Below, piece by piece: positions 23,736 through 38,674 of a DNA stretch of 64,000 nucleotides. The notes below the pieces were generated by a model. It did no database searches, was not told where the DNA came from, and was given only the letters and a program-made list of their open reading frames with translations. Source of the DNA: Natrinema salaciae (GTDB lineage Archaea; Halobacteriota; Halobacteria; Halobacteriales; Natrialbaceae); NCBI RefSeq assembly GCF_900110865.1, contig NZ_FOFD01000007.1:1-64000 (forward strand), written 5' to 3'. The position numbers and the translations under genes are program-made. The first letter of the stretch is position 1. Every line of letters starts with the position of its first letter.

Positions 23736-23757
23736 CCCGTCTCGGTAACCCATGCCT

Positions 23758-25581
23758 ATGTCCGACATACCGGATGTACAGAATGCAGATCGGTCCCGAC
23801 GACAAATGCTTGCTCTCCTTGGTGGCAGCGCATCGGTCGGACTCGCTGGCTGTTCCGCGCTTCTCAGCGACGACGACGACGAGGGCGAGGAAACCAACTA
23901 CGAGACGACCGAACACGCCGAGAAGGCACAGGATGCCTGGGAGCGCATCGTCAACAACCCGGGTCCCGACGCGGAAGAGACCCGTACCGAGGCCTACATC
24001 GATATCGAGGAGGCCGTCCGGGACGACATGGTCATGCTCCCCACCCACCACAGCAAGGGCGAGTTCTTCTGGTACGACAACGTCGACCTCCCCCGGATGG
24101 GTTCCCTCGGCCGCCACCACCTGAAACACAACCGGACGGAAGTCGAAGGCGATTCGGAACTGAACCTGATCAGCGCCACCTTCGACGAGCTGGACCCGAT
24201 CATGTCGACGGACACCGCGTCCGCCGAGGTCATCGCACAGCTCTACGACACGCTGACCAACTATCCGGCCGGCGTCGCCGAGGTCGAGAATCAGCTGATC
24301 GAGTCCTTCGAGACGTCCGACGACGGACTGACGTGGACGTTCACGCTCAAAGACGGCATCCAGTTCCACGACGGATCGGACCTAACCGCCGCCGACGTCA
24401 AGTACTCCTTCCGCCGACTCGCCGAATCCGAGTTCAGCGAACGGGCGAACTTCGTCACCGGCTCGACGGGCGGCCTCGGTATCGACCACGAGACGACCGA
24501 CGACGGCGGCGTCGTCCCCGACTCGCTGGCGATCAACATCGTCGACGACCGCACGTTCGAGATCACCCTTCAAGAACCGAACCCGGCCGTACTGGACGTC
24601 CTCACGTACAACGGCTTCTCCATCGTTCCGGAGGGAATCGTCGGCGACATCGAGGGCTACGACGGTCGGTACAGCCACGACGAGTTCCGAACCGAGATGG
24701 CCAACGGGACCGGTCCGTTCGAGTACGACGAGTTCAACCCCGGTGAAGGTATACGGCTCGTCCGCAACGACAATTTCTACGGGACCGTCGCGAGCGTCGA
24801 ATCCGTCCACTGGGAGATCATCGAGGACCCCGAGTCGAAGTTCACCTACGCGATGGAGAAGAACGCCGACTTCTTCGAAGTTCCGACCTCGTACTACGAC
24901 CCCGACCTCATCGACGCCGAGACCGACGACAACGACCGGGAGTTCGGTACGTACGGGGAGTTCGAGAACGGCGAGACCACGAACTACATCGCGGTCCCCG
25001 AACTCGGGACGTACTATTTCGCGTTCAACGTCAAGAACGTTCCCGCACCCGTCCGAAAGGCGGTCGCGTACGTCACGAACCACGAGGAGTTCGTCAACGA
25101 CGTCCTCCAGAACCGCGGCGTCGAGGCGTTCAGCTTCACGCCGCCGGCGATGTGGCCGACCGGACAGGACGGGTATCAGGACTGGAAAGACGAGTGGCCC
25201 TACGGCGTCAACGAGACCGACCGCGACAGTGCGGGAGATGTTCTCGAGGAGAACGGCTTCACCGAGGACGACCCGTTCGAGATGCAGGTGACCGTCTACG
25301 AGACGAGTCCGGCGTTCCAGGAAATGGCCGACCTGATCCGACAGAAGCTGTCCGGTCTCGGCGTCGAGGCTAGCCCTCAGTCGACGCAGTTCTCGACGCT
25401 CCAGGAGCGCGGCGAGGACGGCGACCTCGAGATGTTCTCGCTCGGCTGGATCTGGAGCTGGCCGGACGTTGCGTACGGCCACTTCGGCTTCGAGCCGAAG
25501 AACACCGACACTTCGAAGATGCCGAACGAAGCGAACGGCTACTACCTCGACTGGCAGGCGAACCTGGAAGACGAGTCCTAA
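23758..25581 (+). CDS. dppA: Peptide-type ABC binding protein, circularly permuted (1)
   Basis: 607 aa Tat lipoprotein: RSRRQMLALLGGSASVGLAGC. It belongs to the SBP_bac_5 (dipeptide/oligopeptide/nickel) class. Residues about 52-128 (EKAQDAWERIVNNP, AYIDIEEAVRDDMVMLP, SKGEFFWYDNVDLPRMGS) look like the closing segment of this class, yet stand first. The class's opening sequence (LNLISATFDELDPIMSTDTA, then WTFTLKDGIQFHDGSDLTAA) begins only at about 135, and the protein ends at GYYLDWQANLEDES, where relatives continue into the helix found here at the N-terminus. It captures peptides or similar solutes outside the cell for the permeases that follow. Confidence 0.85.
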   Translation: MSDIPDVQNADRSRRQMLALLGGSASVGLAGCSALLSDDDDEGEETNYETTEHAEKAQDAWERIVNNPGPDAEETRTEAYIDIEEAVRDDMVMLPTHHSKGEFFWYDNVDLPRMGSLGRHHLKHNRTEVEGDSELNLISATFDELDPIMSTDTASAEVIAQLYDTLTNYPAGVAEVENQLIESFETSDDGLTWTFTLKDGIQFHDGSDLTAADVKYSFRRLAESEFSERANFVTGSTGGLGIDHETTDDGGVVPDSLAINIVDDRTFEITLQEPNPAVLDVLTYNGFSIVPEGIVGDIEGYDGRYSHDEFRTEMANGTGPFEYDEFNPGEGIRLVRNDNFYGTVASVESVHWEIIEDPESKFTYAMEKNADFFEVPTSYYDPDLIDAETDDNDREFGTYGEFENGETTNYIAVPELGTYYFAFNVKNVPAPVRKAVAYVTNHEEFVNDVLQNRGVEAFSFTPPAMWPTGQDGYQDWKDEWPYGVNETDRDSAGDVLEENGFTEDDPFEMQVTVYETSPAFQEMADLIRQKLSGLGVEASPQSTQFSTLQERGEDGDLEMFSLGWIWSWPDVAYGHFGFEPKNTDTSKMPNEANGYYLDWQANLEDES

Positions 25582-31661: not shown

Positions 31662-32183
31662 ATGCACGACGATATCGGCGCTGCCGATCCCGGGTCGCTC
31701 CGCCGACGGGATCCGCAGGGCGTCCAGACGGAAGCCTGGAAACAGACGCTCGAGGACACGGAAGCGATCGCCCAGGAACGTCGCGACGATGGCTGGGAGG
31801 TCGTCACCATCATGGCCGCACACACCGATACCGTGAGCCGCGACATGGGCGACGACGAGCGGTTCGGACTCGTCCACGTGGTTCCGAACAACTACGCCGA
31901 GACGTTTACCGAGGTCTTCGACAGCGACGAATTCACCGAGTACCTGGCCTACGGAACTGAGATCGACGGGTTCATGTTCGTCGTCACGGAGCTAATCGAC
32001 CCGGAGACCGAGCGATCGATTCTGCTCCCCAGTCGATACGATATCGCGCGCGCCGACGGCATGTTCACCTCCGCCGCGGACGAAGGCGTCCTCTACACCC
32101 ACGTCAAGACGATCGACGGGACGATCCTCGGCACGTTCGAACACGAGGAGTACGACCCGTTCGTCCCCAGACCGAACGCGTAA
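31662..32183 (+). CDS. Soluble acidic protein (DUF7529-like)
   Basis: 173 aa. No signal or span. Alpha/beta pattern with EAWKQTLEDTEAIAQERRDD, GWEVVTIMAAHTDTVSRDMG, RFGLVHVVPNNYAETFTEVF and LYTHVKTIDGTILGTFEHEE. I associate this with a conserved haloarchaeal family (DUF7529), function unknown. It is 50 bp after the membrane-protein gene and may be the last gene of the first transporter transcript. Confidence 0.65.
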   Translation: MHDDIGAADPGSLRRRDPQGVQTEAWKQTLEDTEAIAQERRDDGWEVVTIMAAHTDTVSRDMGDDERFGLVHVVPNNYAETFTEVFDSDEFTEYLAYGTEIDGFMFVVTELIDPETERSILLPSRYDIARADGMFTSAADEGVLYTHVKTIDGTILGTFEHEEYDPFVPRPNA

Positions 32184-32490: not shown

Positions 32491-34140
32491 ATGACCGGGG
32501 ATAGCACCCGTCGAGGCGAACGCAGACGGGTACGGCGGCGTTCACTGCTGAAGCGAGCAGGAGCCGCGGGGATCGCCGGTCTGGCGGGGTGCGTGCGGTT
32601 CGACGACGGCGTCGAGGCCAACGGCCCCGCCGAGGAGTTGCTTCGCGACGGGTTCGATGCCACGGGCGTCGAGCCGCCGTTCTCGACGACGATCGCCATT
32701 ACCCAGGACGAAGAACGCGAGCGGTTCGCGCAACTGTTCCGGGACGAACTCAACGGGACGGGCTTTTTCGATGTCGATATCGAACGGCGGGAGTTCGGCT
32801 CGCACGTCGACCGCATGATCGCGGCGGCCGACGAATCGGAAAATGCCATGTTCGTCGCGAGCTGGACCGGCGGCTGGGACCCCAGCGACTACGTCAATAT
32901 CCTGTTTCACTCGGACAACCACACGCCCGACGGCTTCAACGTCAACCACTACGCGAACGAGCGCGTCGACGACCGCCTCGATGCGGGCCTCGAGGAGACC
33001 GACCCGGACGAACGGGTCGCGATCTACCGGGAGGTACAGGAGGAACTGGTCGCCGACTCCCCGCTATCGTTCGTCCGCTTTCGGGAATCGACCCACGTCT
33101 GGGACGGCGCGGTCGTCACCGACTGGCGGACGTATCCGCTCCGGACGGGAACGTACTACGGCGTGTACGCGCCGTGGGCCGGCGTCTACACCGATCTCCA
33201 GGACGGCACCGAGTTCGTCGGCGATCTGGGGAGCGACGTTCAGAACACCGATCCGGTGTCGATGAACGACACCGCGTCCGGGCAGGCGACGGTGCTGCTC
33301 TACGAGCAACTCGTCGGCGTCGACTTCGAGGGCGAACCCTGCCCGTTTCTCGCCGACGAGTGGGAGCGACTCGACGAGACGACCTACCGGTTCTCGCTCC
33401 GTAATGGGGTTCGATTCCACAACGGCGAGCGTCTCACCGCCGATCACGTCAAGGGATCGCTCGAGCGGTACGAGGGAACTCCCCGGGAGAGCGACGTCTA
33501 CGACTGGTACGACGGCAGCGAAATCGTCGACGACACGACCATCGAGATCAGTTGCTGGCGGGAGTACGGACCGTTCGAGAACGCGCTGTTCGACGTCCCG
33601 ATCGTCCCGATGGCCGCGATCGACGGCGAACTCGACCTCGAGTCGGAGCCGATCGGAACCGGCCCCTACCAGCTCGTCGAGTACGAAAGCGACAACCGCT
33701 GGCGGATGGCCCGATTCGACGACCACTGGTTCGACGGCGACGGGACTGTCCCGGCGACGGCACCGATCGAGACGGTTACCCTCGAGATCATCACCGAGAA
33801 GTCGTCCCGCCAGGCCGCGCTCGAGGCCGGGAACGTCCACTTCAGCGGCGACGTCCCTTCGGCGAGTCTCGGCGACTTCGAGGACGACGACGCCTACGGC
33901 GTCGGCCGTCACGTCGGCGGCGGGTTCGATATGGTGATCTACCCCTCCTACCGCGCACCGTTTTCCGAGCAGTCGGTCCGCCGCGGCTGTAACATGTTGC
34001 TTCCGCGGCAGACGACCCTGGAAAACGTCTATCACGGCGTCGGATCGGTGGCGTACACGCCGATTTCGCCGCTGCTCGACGCCTACGCAGGCGAGGCGTT
34101 TCAGGAATCGATCGCGGACGAGTACGTGCACCCGAACTGA
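32491..34140 (+). CDS. Peptide-type ABC binding protein, circularly permuted (2)
   Basis: 549 aa Tat lipoprotein (RRVRRRSLLKRAGAAGI, lipobox LAGC at about 31-34). Residues about 45-230 (AEELLRDGFDATG, ERFAQLFRDELNG, VASWTGGWDPSDYVNILFH, ANERVDDRLDAGLEETDPDE) are the C-terminal lobe of SBP_bac_5 proteins, placed first. The normal opening sequence (GDLGSDVQNTDPVSMNDTAS, then YRFSLRNGVRFHNGERLTAD) begins near residue 243 and the chain ends at YTPISPLLDAYAGEAF...VHPN, exactly where relatives enter the AEELL helix. The breakpoint differs from that of the first binding protein. Confidence 0.85.
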   Translation: MTGDSTRRGERRRVRRRSLLKRAGAAGIAGLAGCVRFDDGVEANGPAEELLRDGFDATGVEPPFSTTIAITQDEERERFAQLFRDELNGTGFFDVDIERREFGSHVDRMIAAADESENAMFVASWTGGWDPSDYVNILFHSDNHTPDGFNVNHYANERVDDRLDAGLEETDPDERVAIYREVQEELVADSPLSFVRFRESTHVWDGAVVTDWRTYPLRTGTYYGVYAPWAGVYTDLQDGTEFVGDLGSDVQNTDPVSMNDTASGQATVLLYEQLVGVDFEGEPCPFLADEWERLDETTYRFSLRNGVRFHNGERLTADHVKGSLERYEGTPRESDVYDWYDGSEIVDDTTIEISCWREYGPFENALFDVPIVPMAAIDGELDLESEPIGTGPYQLVEYESDNRWRMARFDDHWFDGDGTVPATAPIETVTLEIITEKSSRQAALEAGNVHFSGDVPSASLGDFEDDDAYGVGRHVGGGFDMVIYPSYRAPFSEQSVRRGCNMLLPRQTTLENVYHGVGSVAYTPISPLLDAYAGEAFQESIADEYVHPN

Positions 34141-34155
34141 CCTCACCGCTTCCCA

Positions 34156-35103
34156 ATGTCCCTCGGTCGATACGTCTGCAAACGGCTGGTGCTCACGGTC
34201 CCGGTCCTGCTCGGCGTCACCCTGCTGACGTTCTCGTTCGTCCACGTGCTTCCGGGCGACGCAGCCGACGCGATCATCGGCTTTCGGGACGTCAGCCCCG
34301 GCGTCGAGGCGTCGATCCGGGCCGAGTACCACCTCGATCAGCCGCTGTGGAAACAGTACCTGCTGTGGCTGCGGGACGCGATCGCGCTCGAGTTCGGCGA
34401 GTCGCCGATCACCGGCCGCAGCGTCGCGGGGACGATCGGCCGTCGGCTCCCGGCGACGATCGCGCTCGGCGGGGCCGCGTGGCTGCTCGCGCTCGCGATC
34501 GGGATTCCGGCGGGGATCGTCGCCGCGGTCAGGCGGGGCGAGCCGGCCGACGAACTCAGCCGGCTCGCGGCGCTCGCCGGGATCGCGACGCCGAACTTCT
34601 GGCTCGGCCTCATCCTGCTTCTGGTCTTCGGGGTTCGGCTGGGCTGGTTCCGCGTCATTCCGCCGGACGCGCCGCTCGCGAGTCTCGCGATGGCGAAGTT
34701 CATGGTGCTCCCGACGATCACGCTGGGGACCGCGTCGGCCGCACTCGTCACCCGACTGCTGCGCTCGTCGATGTTGGCGGCGCTCGACGCCGAGTACGTT
34801 CGGACCGCACGAGCGAAGGGGCTTCCCGAGCGAACCGTGATCCTGAAACACGCGCTGCGAAACTCCCTGCTCCCGGTCGTGACCGTCGCCGGCCTCCAGC
34901 TCGCGTTCCTGGTCGACGGTGCCGTCGTCGTCGAACAGATATTCTCCTGGCCGGGGATGGGGCGGCTGCTGGTCCGATCGATCCTCCAGCGCGACTACCC
35001 GCTCATTCAGGCCAGCGTACTCGTCATCGCCGTCGCGGTCGTCCTCGCGAACCTGCTCGTCGACGTCGTCTACGCGACGCTCGACCCCCGCATCCGATAC
35101 TAA
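34156..35103 (+). CDS. dppB: DppB-like ABC permease (2)
   Basis: 315 aa, the standard length. Opening span (VCKRLVLTVPVLLGVTLLTF), then SFVHVLPGDAADAI, five further spans and the coupling loop YVRTARAKGLPERTVILKHA followed by LRNSLLPVVTV. It starts 15 bp after the binding-protein gene. Ends at TAA, 3 bp before the next ATG. Confidence 0.93.
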   Translation: MSLGRYVCKRLVLTVPVLLGVTLLTFSFVHVLPGDAADAIIGFRDVSPGVEASIRAEYHLDQPLWKQYLLWLRDAIALEFGESPITGRSVAGTIGRRLPATIALGGAAWLLALAIGIPAGIVAAVRRGEPADELSRLAALAGIATPNFWLGLILLLVFGVRLGWFRVIPPDAPLASLAMAKFMVLPTITLGTASAALVTRLLRSSMLAALDAEYVRTARAKGLPERTVILKHALRNSLLPVVTVAGLQLAFLVDGAVVVEQIFSWPGMGRLLVRSILQRDYPLIQASVLVIAVAVVLANLLVDVVYATLDPRIRY

Positions 35104-35106
35104 TCC

Positions 35107-36240
35107 ATGAGCGACCGAGATCCATCCACCGAACGCGGCCGGATTCGCATCGTCGGCTTCGACGAGGCAGTCTCGGACCGGTTCGGTGACGAGGCGGGAG
35201 CCGCGAACTCGGAGGCGACACCGGAGACGGTTCCTCCCACGTCGCCGGAAGCGATCGCAGAGGCGGAGTCGGAGACGGAGACGACCGGCGAGACCGTCCC
35301 AGCGGGGCGGCACCGCCTCGAGGACGCGTGGCGACGGTTCCGGCGGGACCGGACGGCGATGGTCGGGTTGGGGATCATCGTCGCGATGACGGTGCTGGCG
35401 GTCTTCGCCCGGCCGATCGAGGTGTCGACCGCGGAGGTGACGATCAGGCTGCAGCCGTTCTCGCTGGCTCCCTACGACCCGGGCGAGACGTTCGTCGCAC
35501 CGGCGAACGCGCCGCCCTCCTGGGCGCATCCGTTCGGGACCGACTGGGCGGGTCGCGACCAGTTCTCGCGGGTGCTCGTCGGCGGCCGGTACACGCTCGG
35601 AATCGGGCTCGTCGCCGTCGTGCTGGCGCTGGGCGTCGGCGTCCCCCTCGGTGCGATCGCAGGGTATTTCGGCGGCTGGACGGACGAAGTCATCATGCGG
35701 GTCGTCGACGTGCTCTACGCCTTCCCGTTTCTGGTGCTGGCGATCGCGATCGTTCCGATCCTCGAGCCGCTACCGGTCCTCGGCGACGGGTTCTGGACGG
35801 TGGTAACGGCGCTCGTGGTCACCGGATGGCTGGGCTACGCCAGACTGCTGCGCGGCGAAGTCCTCTCGGTCCGGGAACGCGAGTACGTCACGGCTGCCAG
35901 GGCGCTCGGCGTGCCCGACCGGACGATCGTCCGCAGACACGTCGTGCCGAACGCGATCACGCCCGTCGTCGTTCAGGCGACGCTCAACGTCGGGACGGTC
36001 GTTCTCGCGGCAGCGGCGCTCGGGTTCCTCGGGCTCGGCCTCGAACCCGGGAGCACCGAGTGGGGGGCGATGCTCTCGCAGGGCCGGAGCTCGCTCGTGC
36101 AGGGCCACTGGCACGTTACCGTCTTCCCCGGGCTGGCGATCTTCCTGTTCGTGCTGGCGATCAACCTCGTCGGCGACGGCGTGAACGACGCGCTCGATCC
36201 CCATCGAGACGCGGCCGACGAACGGAGGCGGATGCGCTGA
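35107..36240 (+). CDS. dppC: DppC-like ABC permease (2)
   Basis: 377 aa. A polar, acidic N-terminus of about 75 residues (rich in Glu, Thr and Ala) leads into LEDAWRRFRRDRTAMVGLGI, the usual DppC opening. FGTDWAGRDQFSRVLVGGRY and the coupling loop EYVTAARALGVPDRTIVRRH are intact. Six spans. The acidic leader is cytoplasmic and distinct from the multi-span domain of the first DppC. Its TGA overlaps the next ATG by one base. Confidence 0.92.
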   Translation: MSDRDPSTERGRIRIVGFDEAVSDRFGDEAGAANSEATPETVPPTSPEAIAEAESETETTGETVPAGRHRLEDAWRRFRRDRTAMVGLGIIVAMTVLAVFARPIEVSTAEVTIRLQPFSLAPYDPGETFVAPANAPPSWAHPFGTDWAGRDQFSRVLVGGRYTLGIGLVAVVLALGVGVPLGAIAGYFGGWTDEVIMRVVDVLYAFPFLVLAIAIVPILEPLPVLGDGFWTVVTALVVTGWLGYARLLRGEVLSVREREYVTAARALGVPDRTIVRRHVVPNAITPVVVQATLNVGTVVLAAAALGFLGLGLEPGSTEWGAMLSQGRSSLVQGHWHVTVFPGLAIFLFVLAINLVGDGVNDALDPHRDAADERRRMR

Positions 36241-37352
36241 TGACCCTGCTCGAGGTCGAGGATCTCGTCGTCCAGTTCTACACGGACGACGGCGTGGTCC
36301 GGGCGGTCGACGGGATTAGCTACGAACTCCGTGCCGGCGAGACGCTCGGCCTGGTCGGCGAGAGCGGGGCCGGCAAGAGTGTCGCCAGCCTCGCGCTGCT
36401 TCGCCTGATCCGGGCCCCCGGCGAGATCGTCCGCGGCGAGATCCGGTTCGGGGGACGGGACCTGCTCGCGTGTTCGGACGACGAGCTCCGGGCGATCCGG
36501 GGCAGCGAGATCGCGATGGTGTTTCAGGACCCCGACGCGGCACTCAACCCGGTCTACACCGTCGGCGAACAGATCGCCGAAGCGATCCGCACCCACGAGG
36601 ACGTGTCCGACGCCGAGGCCCGCGAGCGGGCGATCGACCTCCTCGAGCGGGTCGGTATCCCGGACGCCCCCGCGCGGTACGCGGACTATCCCCACGAGTT
36701 CTCCGGCGGGATGCAACAGCGGGTCGTCATCGCGATGGCGCTGTCCTGCGACCCCGATCTGCTCGTCTGCGACGAACCGACGACCGGGCTCGACGTCACC
36801 GTGCAGGCCGGCATCCTCGAGTTGCTCGCGGACCTCGCGGCGCAGTCCGACACGGCGATTCAGCTGGTCACGCACGACCTCGGGATCGTCGCGGAGCTGT
36901 GCGATCGGGTGCTGGTGCAGTACGCCGGCGAGATCGTCGAACGCGCGCCGGTCGAGGAGCTGTACTACGATCCCAAACACCCCTACACCGTCGGGTTGCT
37001 GGCCTCGATCCCGCGACTCGGCGACGACAGCGAGCGCCTCGCGACGGTCCCCGGAACGGCACCGTCCCTCGTCGACCCGCCGACCGGCTGTCGGTTCCAT
37101 CCGCGCTGTCCGTACGCCGAGGAATCCTGTGCCAGACGCCACCCGCCGCTCGTCGAGACGGACACGGAGCCGTCGGCCGGCGACGCCGATCCAGATCCCG
37201 ATCCCGAGACACACCTCGCCGCCTGTCTCGAGTACACCGGGGAGCTCGAGGACGGGCTCGACTACGAGGTGCGGGTGCGGGACGGCGACCGCCGCGAACG
37301 CGAGTCGAACCGGGAGCCGAACGGGGACGAACGGCGGGGTGACTCGCGATGA
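36240..37352 (+). CDS. dppD: DppD-like ABC ATPase (2)
   Basis: 370 aa. Walker [10 protein letters not shown]-loop [10 protein letters not shown], signature FSGGMQQR, Walker [13 protein letters not shown]. The C-terminal domain keeps the compact cysteine motif ([15 protein letters not shown], then THLAACLEY). An extra charged tail (about 35 residues rich in Arg and Glu) follows. It lacks the 100-residue insertion of the first DppD. Confidence 0.92.
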
Positions 37353-38674
37353 CGACGGCCGGCGACGACCCGCTGCTCCGGGCAGAGGGGCTCGAGAAGT
37401 ACTACGAGACGGCCGACGGGGTTCTCGATCGGCTGTTCGGCCGCAGCGAGACCGTTCGAGCGGTCGACGGCGTCGACCTCGAAATCCGCGAGGGCGAGAC
37501 GCTCGGCCTGGTCGGCGAGAGCGGCTGCGGGAAGACGACGCTCGGGCGAACCCTCCTCCGATTGCTCGAGCCGACCGGCGGGACGATCACCTACCGCGGG
37601 ACCGAGCTCACGGACTGCGCGCCGTCCCAGCTTCGGGCGTTGCGGACCGAAATCCAGTACGTCTTCCAGAACCCCACGGCCAGTCTCAACCCGCAACTGA
37701 CGGTCGCCGATATCGTCGGCGAAGCCCTCGCGGTCCACGATATCGTTCCCGACGATCGGCGCGACGAGCGCGTTCGGGAACTGCTCGAGACGGTCGGGCT
37801 CCGGGCCGATCACGCCGCCCGGTACCCACGGGAGTTCTCCGGCGGCCAGCGACAGCGGATCGGCATCGCTCGCGCGCTCGCCGTCGAACCCGATCTGATC
37901 GTCTGTGACGAGCCGGTCTCCGGGCTCGACGTCTCGGTCCAGGCCCGAATCCTCAACCTGCTGGCCGACCTGCAGGACCAGTTCGGGCTCTCGTACCTGT
38001 TTATCGCCCACGACCTCTCGGTCGTCGACCACATCGCCGACCGGGTGGCCGTGATGTACCTCGGCGGACTCGTCGAGGTCGGGACGACCGCCGAGGTCTT
38101 CGCGGACCCGTCCCATCCCTACACCGAAGCGCTGCTGTCGGCGATCCCGGAGCCCGACCCTCGCTGGGAGGGCGACCGGATCGTCCTCGAGGAGTCCGTC
38201 CCCTCGCCGACCGATCCGCCGTCGGGCTGTCGATTCCACACGCGGTGTCCGAAGGTCATCCCGCCTGCGGCGTACGACCTCGAGACGGACACGTTCCGCG
38301 CGATTATGGCGCTTCGGAGCCGACTCGCCGAGACGGACCCCGACACGCTGCACTCGCGACTCGACGACCGCGACGACGCCGCGGCGGCGCTCCGAGACGC
38401 CCACGGAATCCCCCGTCGGCTCCACGATCCGGACGCCGACGCCGTCCTCACTGACGCGCTCGAGGCCGCGGTGGCCGGTGATCTCGAGCGTGCGCGTCGC
38501 CGTCTCGCGGCGGCGTTCGAGACGCCCTGCGAGACGACCGCGCCGGAACTGACGGCAGGCACGGCCGACCATCCGATCGCCTGCCATCGCTTCGACGAGC
38601 GATTTGCCGCCGAGACCGACTCGAACGAGAACCGCACGCGTTCGAACGGGACCCGATCCGATCATGCACAGTAA
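37349..38674 (+). CDS. dppF: DppF-like ABC ATPase with split C-terminal cysteine motif (2)
   Basis: 441 aa, ATGA overlap with the previous gene. Walker A GESGCGKT (57-63), Q-loop [10 protein letters not shown], signature FSGGQRQR, Walker [13 protein letters not shown]. Cys294 and Cys300 ([14 protein letters not shown]) are separated by some 93 residues from Cys394 and Cys412 ([16 protein letters not shown]), the same split as the first DppF, although the inserted helices have diverged strongly. Confidence 0.92.

Follow-up and report, generated by a model that had tools for sequence, protein, structure and literature searches.

Does the gene at 32491..34140 (+ strand) of the 64,000-nucleotide stretch of Natrinema salaciae DNA analysed here (the window) encode a substrate-binding protein (SBP) whose chain has been circularly permuted, and if so, how did the new order arise and what does it mean for the importer? 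The original prediction, made from sequence alone, was that the blocks normally ending an SBP_bac_5 protein come first in this one, that the break lies just before the AEELL helix, and that the joining of N- and C-termini lying close in one lobe had given a true circular permutation with a relocated lipid anchor. The gene has an ATG start and encodes an SBP_bac_5 (cluster C) lipoprotein of 549 aa plus stop. Its Tat signal and lipobox occupy residues 1-34 (32491..32592, + strand; R16 R17 ... GLAG/C34), as judged from the sequence and orthologue conservation, and R16, R17, L20, G33 and C34 are invariant across 15 orthologues. The twin arginine and the lipobox cysteine are present, while export and lipidation are inferred.

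We examined the order of the blocks behind this signal. In a Pfam scan up to E 10, PF00496 (SBP_bac_5) was the only family found, at 170.9 bits against a curated cut-off of 32.4, with no match to the cluster B (Peripla_BP) superfamily. Profile positions 2-258 fell on residues 283-536, and a second stretch matched elsewhere. A phmmer comparison with PDB entry 5u4o found chain positions 358-487 at residues 59-193, ahead of positions 52-337 at residues 248-533, a swapped order that the match to 1uqw showed likewise. None of the PDB sequences among the phmmer matches was collinear with this protein (P0001) or with L201, a permuted protein of Nitratireductor described below. In a doubled-sequence test, each protein was joined to its own copy and searched with a 504-position HMM built from 16 unpermuted haloarchaeal SBPs. 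Ordinary SBPs gave one match within one copy, whereas the doubled P0001 gave a single 254-bit match spanning the artificial joint (HMM 25-478), compared to 194 and 58 bits for the separate pieces.

The nearest unpermuted relative, L214 of genome G146 (BLAST residue numbers are ORF numbering less 11), defined the two blocks by BLAST: residues 47-234 correspond to its 412-598 (36% identity, E 4e-41) and residues 236-546 to its 94-405 (44%, E 9e-94), with hardly any residues missing at either joint. The unpermuted L147 of Halorubrum sp. Boch-26 runs continuously across the break point, LLDEYVGQN-EEEGLRLIGEAF, and reads LLDEYVGQNEEEGLRLIGEAF where P0001 ends (IADEYVHPN) and begins (GPAEELLRDGF). 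The front block (residues 46-205; 32626..33105, + strand), assigned through sequence matches and a partial-chain model, opens with the AEELL helix and comprises the later half of lobe 2 together with the final strand of domain I. It is followed by a new internal joint from the old C-terminus to the old N-terminus (residues 206-239; 33106..33207, + strand), placed by alignment with L214 and L147. The rear block (residues 240-549; 33208..34137, + strand), supported by Pfam, phmmer, the doubled HMM and the model, stops at ADEYVHPN, directly ahead of the AEELL helix of the normal order. Residues 46-235 are equivalent to the last third of a normal SBP, and residues 236-549 to the first two thirds. 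The protein does not meet the canonical chain order with both termini in domain I, and it is a permuted variant and not a standard member.

Structure prediction was consistent with this arrangement. The AlphaFold2 model of the full protein had a mean pLDDT of 90.9 and a pTM of 0.86, with low values only in the signal region; nearly all of residues 50-549, and the joint at 206-239, exceeded 90. Residues 240-549 matched DppA 1-328 (1dpp, Z 24.2) and superposed on the DppA of transport complex 8z1z over 297 residues at 2.0 A, and residues 45-236 folded alone matched 1dpp 325-503 (Z 12.3) and 5u4o 344-512 (Z 13.3). By the model, the two halves, matched separately, span the DppA chain once with hardly any overlap, and a bilobed fold with all of domains I-III is predicted. 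The last strands of the front block, which complete lobe 1, had a pLDDT of only 46-53 when the block was folded alone but above 90 in the whole chain, which indicates that the front block is part of one fold and not an extra domain. The model was built from 53 alignment rows, mostly half-length fragments of unpermuted proteins, so for the packing of the halves the model depends on only nine permuted rows of full length and on what the network itself knows of the fold. A Foldseek search of the model against the PDB aligned only about 240 residues (TM 0.38). We rejected this as a sign of a new fold, since a sequential aligner is expected to recover half of a permutation.

Both native ends of a cluster C SBP lie in domain I: in BbOppA4 (4gl8) domain I consists of residues 30-62, 187-285 and 504-530, with the termini in the first and last of these, and domain III (lobe 2) of residues 286-503 (PMC5736914). 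The end of our model aligns near BbOppA4 residue ~350, within domain III, so the new ends are predicted to lie in lobe 2 and the lipid anchor to shift from lobe 1 to lobe 2. The original prediction was thus borne out in its swapped block order and its break before the AEELL helix (by HMM, BLAST and the L147 alignment), in the true circular permutation (on the evidence of sequence, predicted structure and unpermuted close relatives) and in the neighbouring native termini. The moved anchor held at the level of the model. Neither outcome named beforehand as refuting it, a collinear alignment over the whole length or an extra domain followed by a complete SBP, occurred.

The permuted gene is the first gene, and the only SBP gene, of a five-gene SBP-B-C-D-F operon. 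It is followed on the + strand by an OppB/DppB-type permease (34156..35103; PF00528, PF19300), an OppC/DppC-type permease (35107..36240; PF00528, PF12911), a DppD/OppD-type ATPase of 370 aa (36240..37352; assigned from its reading frame and start and from 50-79% identity to the D gene of orthologous operons) and a DppF/OppF-type ATPase of 441 aa (37349..38674; PF00005, PF08352). Asp130 in the motif GGWDP (codon 32878..32880, + strand) is invariant in the 15 orthologues, and in a 25-row alignment its column holds the D of GDP/DP in at least 90% of the rows; its equivalence to the conserved cleft aspartate is inferred from alignment and conservation. This aspartate holds the amino end of the peptide in DppA (D436; PMC12136057) and in pneumococcal OBPs (PMC11192437), suggesting a peptide-like ligand here, although this is an inference without binding data.

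A full-length match to the permuted protein was present in 24 of the 29 genomes of the genus at 64-100% identity, and the same architecture occurred in other genera; the named relatives at 65-72% were Natrinema species. When genome G076 is counted, 25 of the 29 carry the gene. The G076 orthologue (L300 about 1788-1804, G076:C5) is broken only by CTGTCTCTTATACACAT plus N, a Nextera mosaic end, indicating that its frame break is adapter left in the public assembly, an artefact. Against six orthologues, pN/pS was 0.34-0.52 for the whole gene and 0.30-0.66 for the front block, hence both blocks are constrained and the gene is under purifying selection. Orthologous SBP-B-C-D-F operons in Halorubrum and relatives carry an SBP in normal order whose halves are 27-44% identical to those of P0001. 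Their permease B identities were 64% for L290 (the locus of L214), 55% for L127, 54% for L128 and 54% for L147; some operons with a permuted SBP gave 62-63%, so that L290 is equally close. The importer therefore evidently works with both chain orders, though no transport data exist to confirm this.

A second permuted SBP was found in the neighbouring SBP-B-C-D-F operon (23752..25581, + strand), as determined by BLAST to the unpermuted L113 and by the tree. Its residues ~51-132 correspond to the last ~80 of a normal SBP and ~137-609 to the remainder (BLAST to L113: 52-133 to 515-597 and 138-610 to 51-520, ORF numbering one higher), and its breakpoint differs from that of P0001. L113 and L118, its unpermuted sisters, likewise belong to operons of this kind. 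Between the two importer operons of the window lies a gene for a DUF7529 protein (31662-32183; PF24373, E 5e-56), and DUF7529-like ORFs were also seen near importer operons in L127, L296 and L297.

Four of the ten SBP_bac_5 proteins of this genome are permuted: the two above and two encoded in tandem on contig C2. The tandem pair (588364-592792 of C2 in G000; loci L005, L008 and L101) belongs to an old clade described below. Eight other haloarchaeal genomes encode 82 distinct SBPs, of which at least 19 are permuted as well, and in this survey the permuted share is roughly a quarter of haloarchaeal SBP_bac_5 proteins. When permuted sequences were rotated to normal order before grouping, six groups emerged. 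The P0001 family (i) breaks at HMM 320/332. Group (ii), L099/L132/L137, breaks at 337/342 and has unpermuted relatives L131 and L281 at 57-67% identity per block; L137 aligns with L131 signal to signal, then 51-231 with 488-668 and 232-654 with 63-485, a textbook permutation. In group (iii), the family of the 23752-25581 SBP, only the last ~80 residues have moved (unpermuted L113/L118, 38-60%). Group (iv), L244, breaks at 308/322 (unpermuted L279, 47-50%), and group (v), L229/L277, at 446/447 (unpermuted L274, 58-63%). Group (vi), a large old clade, breaks at 342/348 and has no unpermuted relative above 29%. The late cut of group (iii) was not caught by the automatic block-order test and was called from BLAST, and four members of the P0001 family (L035, L045, L048, L095) are absent from the rotated tree set as low-coverage rows. 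The breaks of all six groups fall in lobe 2, which by our estimate makes up roughly 44% of the chain; a real confinement to this lobe is possible, but the pattern is only suggestive.

Clade (vi) spans haloarchaea, another archaeal family and Alphaproteobacteria, and includes L201 (Nitratireductor, WP_206544944.1), L202 (Ketogulonicigenium, WP_013385786.1), L205 (Halalkalicoccus), L206 (Natrialba) and L005/L008 of the same genome as P0001. Its members share with P0001 a permuted SBP_bac_5 domain with a lobe 2 break, but they form a separate clade in which the break, located past the AELL helix, comes about 15-20 residues later, no unpermuted relative exceeds 29% identity, and the lipid anchor is sometimes absent. 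The alphaproteobacterial proteins (Nitratireductor, Ketogulonicigenium) have plain export signals and no lipobox. The members from archaea of another family in the phylum are L306-L308 (G268, G260, G307) and L309 (G327:C2); three non-haloarchaeal archaeal members carry both a Sec-type signal and a lipobox-like cysteine, and in L309 a C-terminal tail (TPGFGVIAVIAGVMAATYLLRRRR) resembling a PGF-CTERM anchor replaces the lipobox. The clade is common to haloarchaeal plasmids and to alphaproteobacterial ones (Nitratireductor, Neorhizobium, Microvirga, Roseomonas, Ketogulonicigenium, Maritalea), a distribution that hints at a possible transfer between domains. At L204 2055-7480, on the Natronorubrum bangense plasmid NZ_CP031306.1, two consecutive permuted SBP genes are each followed by a PAP2-family phosphatase gene, with no adjacent permease.

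We conclude that the 32491-34140 protein is a genuinely permuted cluster C (DppA/OppA-type) SBP, and we put the whole explanation, function included, at about 0.88. In this explanation, the protein would be the working SBP of the Dpp/Opp-type importer encoded by its operon. Tat would export it folded, C34 would be lipidated, and the tether would run through lobe 2 beside its own permease. It would close as a Venus flytrap on a peptide-like ligand, with Asp130 at the amino end, and then hand this over to the permease. All of this is inferred without experiment, including export, lipidation, ligand binding and transport. Duplication followed by trimming is the standard model for circular permutation, and here an SBP gene would most likely have been duplicated or fused behind its own signal peptide and then lost its redundant ends. 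This route is likely but remains an assumption; we noticed no duplicated intermediate in the proteins examined, without a dedicated search. The permutation would be tolerated because domain I brings the old termini together, surface loops allow lobe 2 to be opened and the protein leaves the cell already folded through Tat. It has recurred independently several times in haloarchaea, the next operon included.

How many times this happened was addressed with a 91-row tree, on which the permuted label needs nine changes, six of them forced by well-supported branches. The rival view, one ancient permutation followed by reversals to normal order in the unpermuted relatives, draws some support from the P0001 family, which as one clade was not rejected (p-AU 0.43) and inside which L214 could be a reversal; group (ii) as one clade was likewise not rejected (p-AU 0.43). 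However, constraining all permuted proteins to one clade cost 1247 log-likelihood units (p-AU 1.7e-43), and the tests also rejected holding together families (i) and (ii), the P0001 family and the L099 group (p-AU 8e-117), or (iii) and (iv), the L009 family and L244 (p-AU 0.013). The breakpoints, too, vary among the groups. A single origin is therefore very improbable, and the constraint tests indicate at least five origins, probably six, nested among unpermuted relatives.

Two other rivals can be all but excluded. If an unrelated N-terminal domain simply preceded a complete ordinary SBP, the front block should not match SBP C-termini (E 4e-41) and fold as that part, nor should the rear block end at DppA residue 328; we found no support for this view. 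An assembly error, annotation artefact or decaying pseudogene has in its favour only that the G076 relative looks split, though by sequencing-adapter sequence, and is opposed by an identical layout in the genus, in its 24 full-length orthologues, as well as in other genera, by pN/pS well below 1 and by the intact operon. It might also be argued that permutation was selected because it puts the lipid anchor on lobe 2 instead of lobe 1, giving better tethering or docking on the permease, as has been suggested for TpMglB-2 too (PMC4990184). In favour of this view, every breakpoint found falls in lobe 2, and a Tat signal and lipobox are present in those permuted proteins of haloarchaea that were examined at full length. 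However, the alphaproteobacterial members of clade (vi) lack a lipobox and one archaeal member ends in a tail resembling an anchor, orthologous importers retain unpermuted SBPs, and the restriction to lobe 2 may merely mirror where cuts are tolerated. We favour tolerance over an anchor-relocating purpose, which is possible but appears unlikely. The purpose implied by the original prediction is thus unsupported as a general cause, and that prediction had foreseen neither the several independent events nor the second permuted SBP in the neighbouring operon.

Few natural circular permutations are on record for the binding proteins of transporters, and the only clear precedent we found comes from one cluster B family. 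TpMglB-2 (Tp0684) of Treponema pallidum and relatives is a permuted cluster B glucose-binding lipoprotein, 'Type Ic / cluster Bc', shown by experiment to retain ligand binding and closing (PMC4990184). Like P0001, it is a naturally permuted, lipid-anchored SBP of an ABC importer with its break within one lobe; it differs in its cluster B (type I) sugar-binding fold and N-lobe break, compared with cluster C and lobe 2, and was treated as one family, in contrast to the several haloarchaeal events. P0001 thus shares a permuted topology with cluster Bc without being a member of it. With DppA/OppA/NikA-type SBPs (PF00496; E. coli DppA 1dpp/8z1z, B. anthracis 5u4o) it shares every secondary-structure block, the cleft Asp, the operon partners and, as far as the model shows, the layout of domains I, II and III, but its chain starts at the equivalent of DppA ~325 and ends at that of ~328, with the old ends joined. 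The literature searched, which did not cover subscription papers or preprints, yielded no permuted SBP of cluster C.

A second SBP fold class, cluster C, is now seen to be permuted, and repeatedly. For annotation, this means that Pfam and NCBIfam show permuted SBPs as partial, swapped matches, and that fold searches respecting chain order detect only half of them. The unpermuted sisters in orthologous operons, up to 67% identical per block, are matched natural pairs that could test the effect of chain order, folding order or tether place on an ABC importer, and the tolerated cut points are useful for biosensor design. A bolder reading, which we see as much reason to doubt as to accept, is that circular permutation is a recurrent evolutionary route in archaeal cluster C SBPs, taken independently at least five or six times, with different breakpoints that all open lobe 2, either because the hinge and the parts facing the permease rule out cuts elsewhere or because a chain that is tethered or starts at lobe 2 is favoured. 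If this is true, haloarchaea would offer natural replicates for the cuts that an SBP tolerates.
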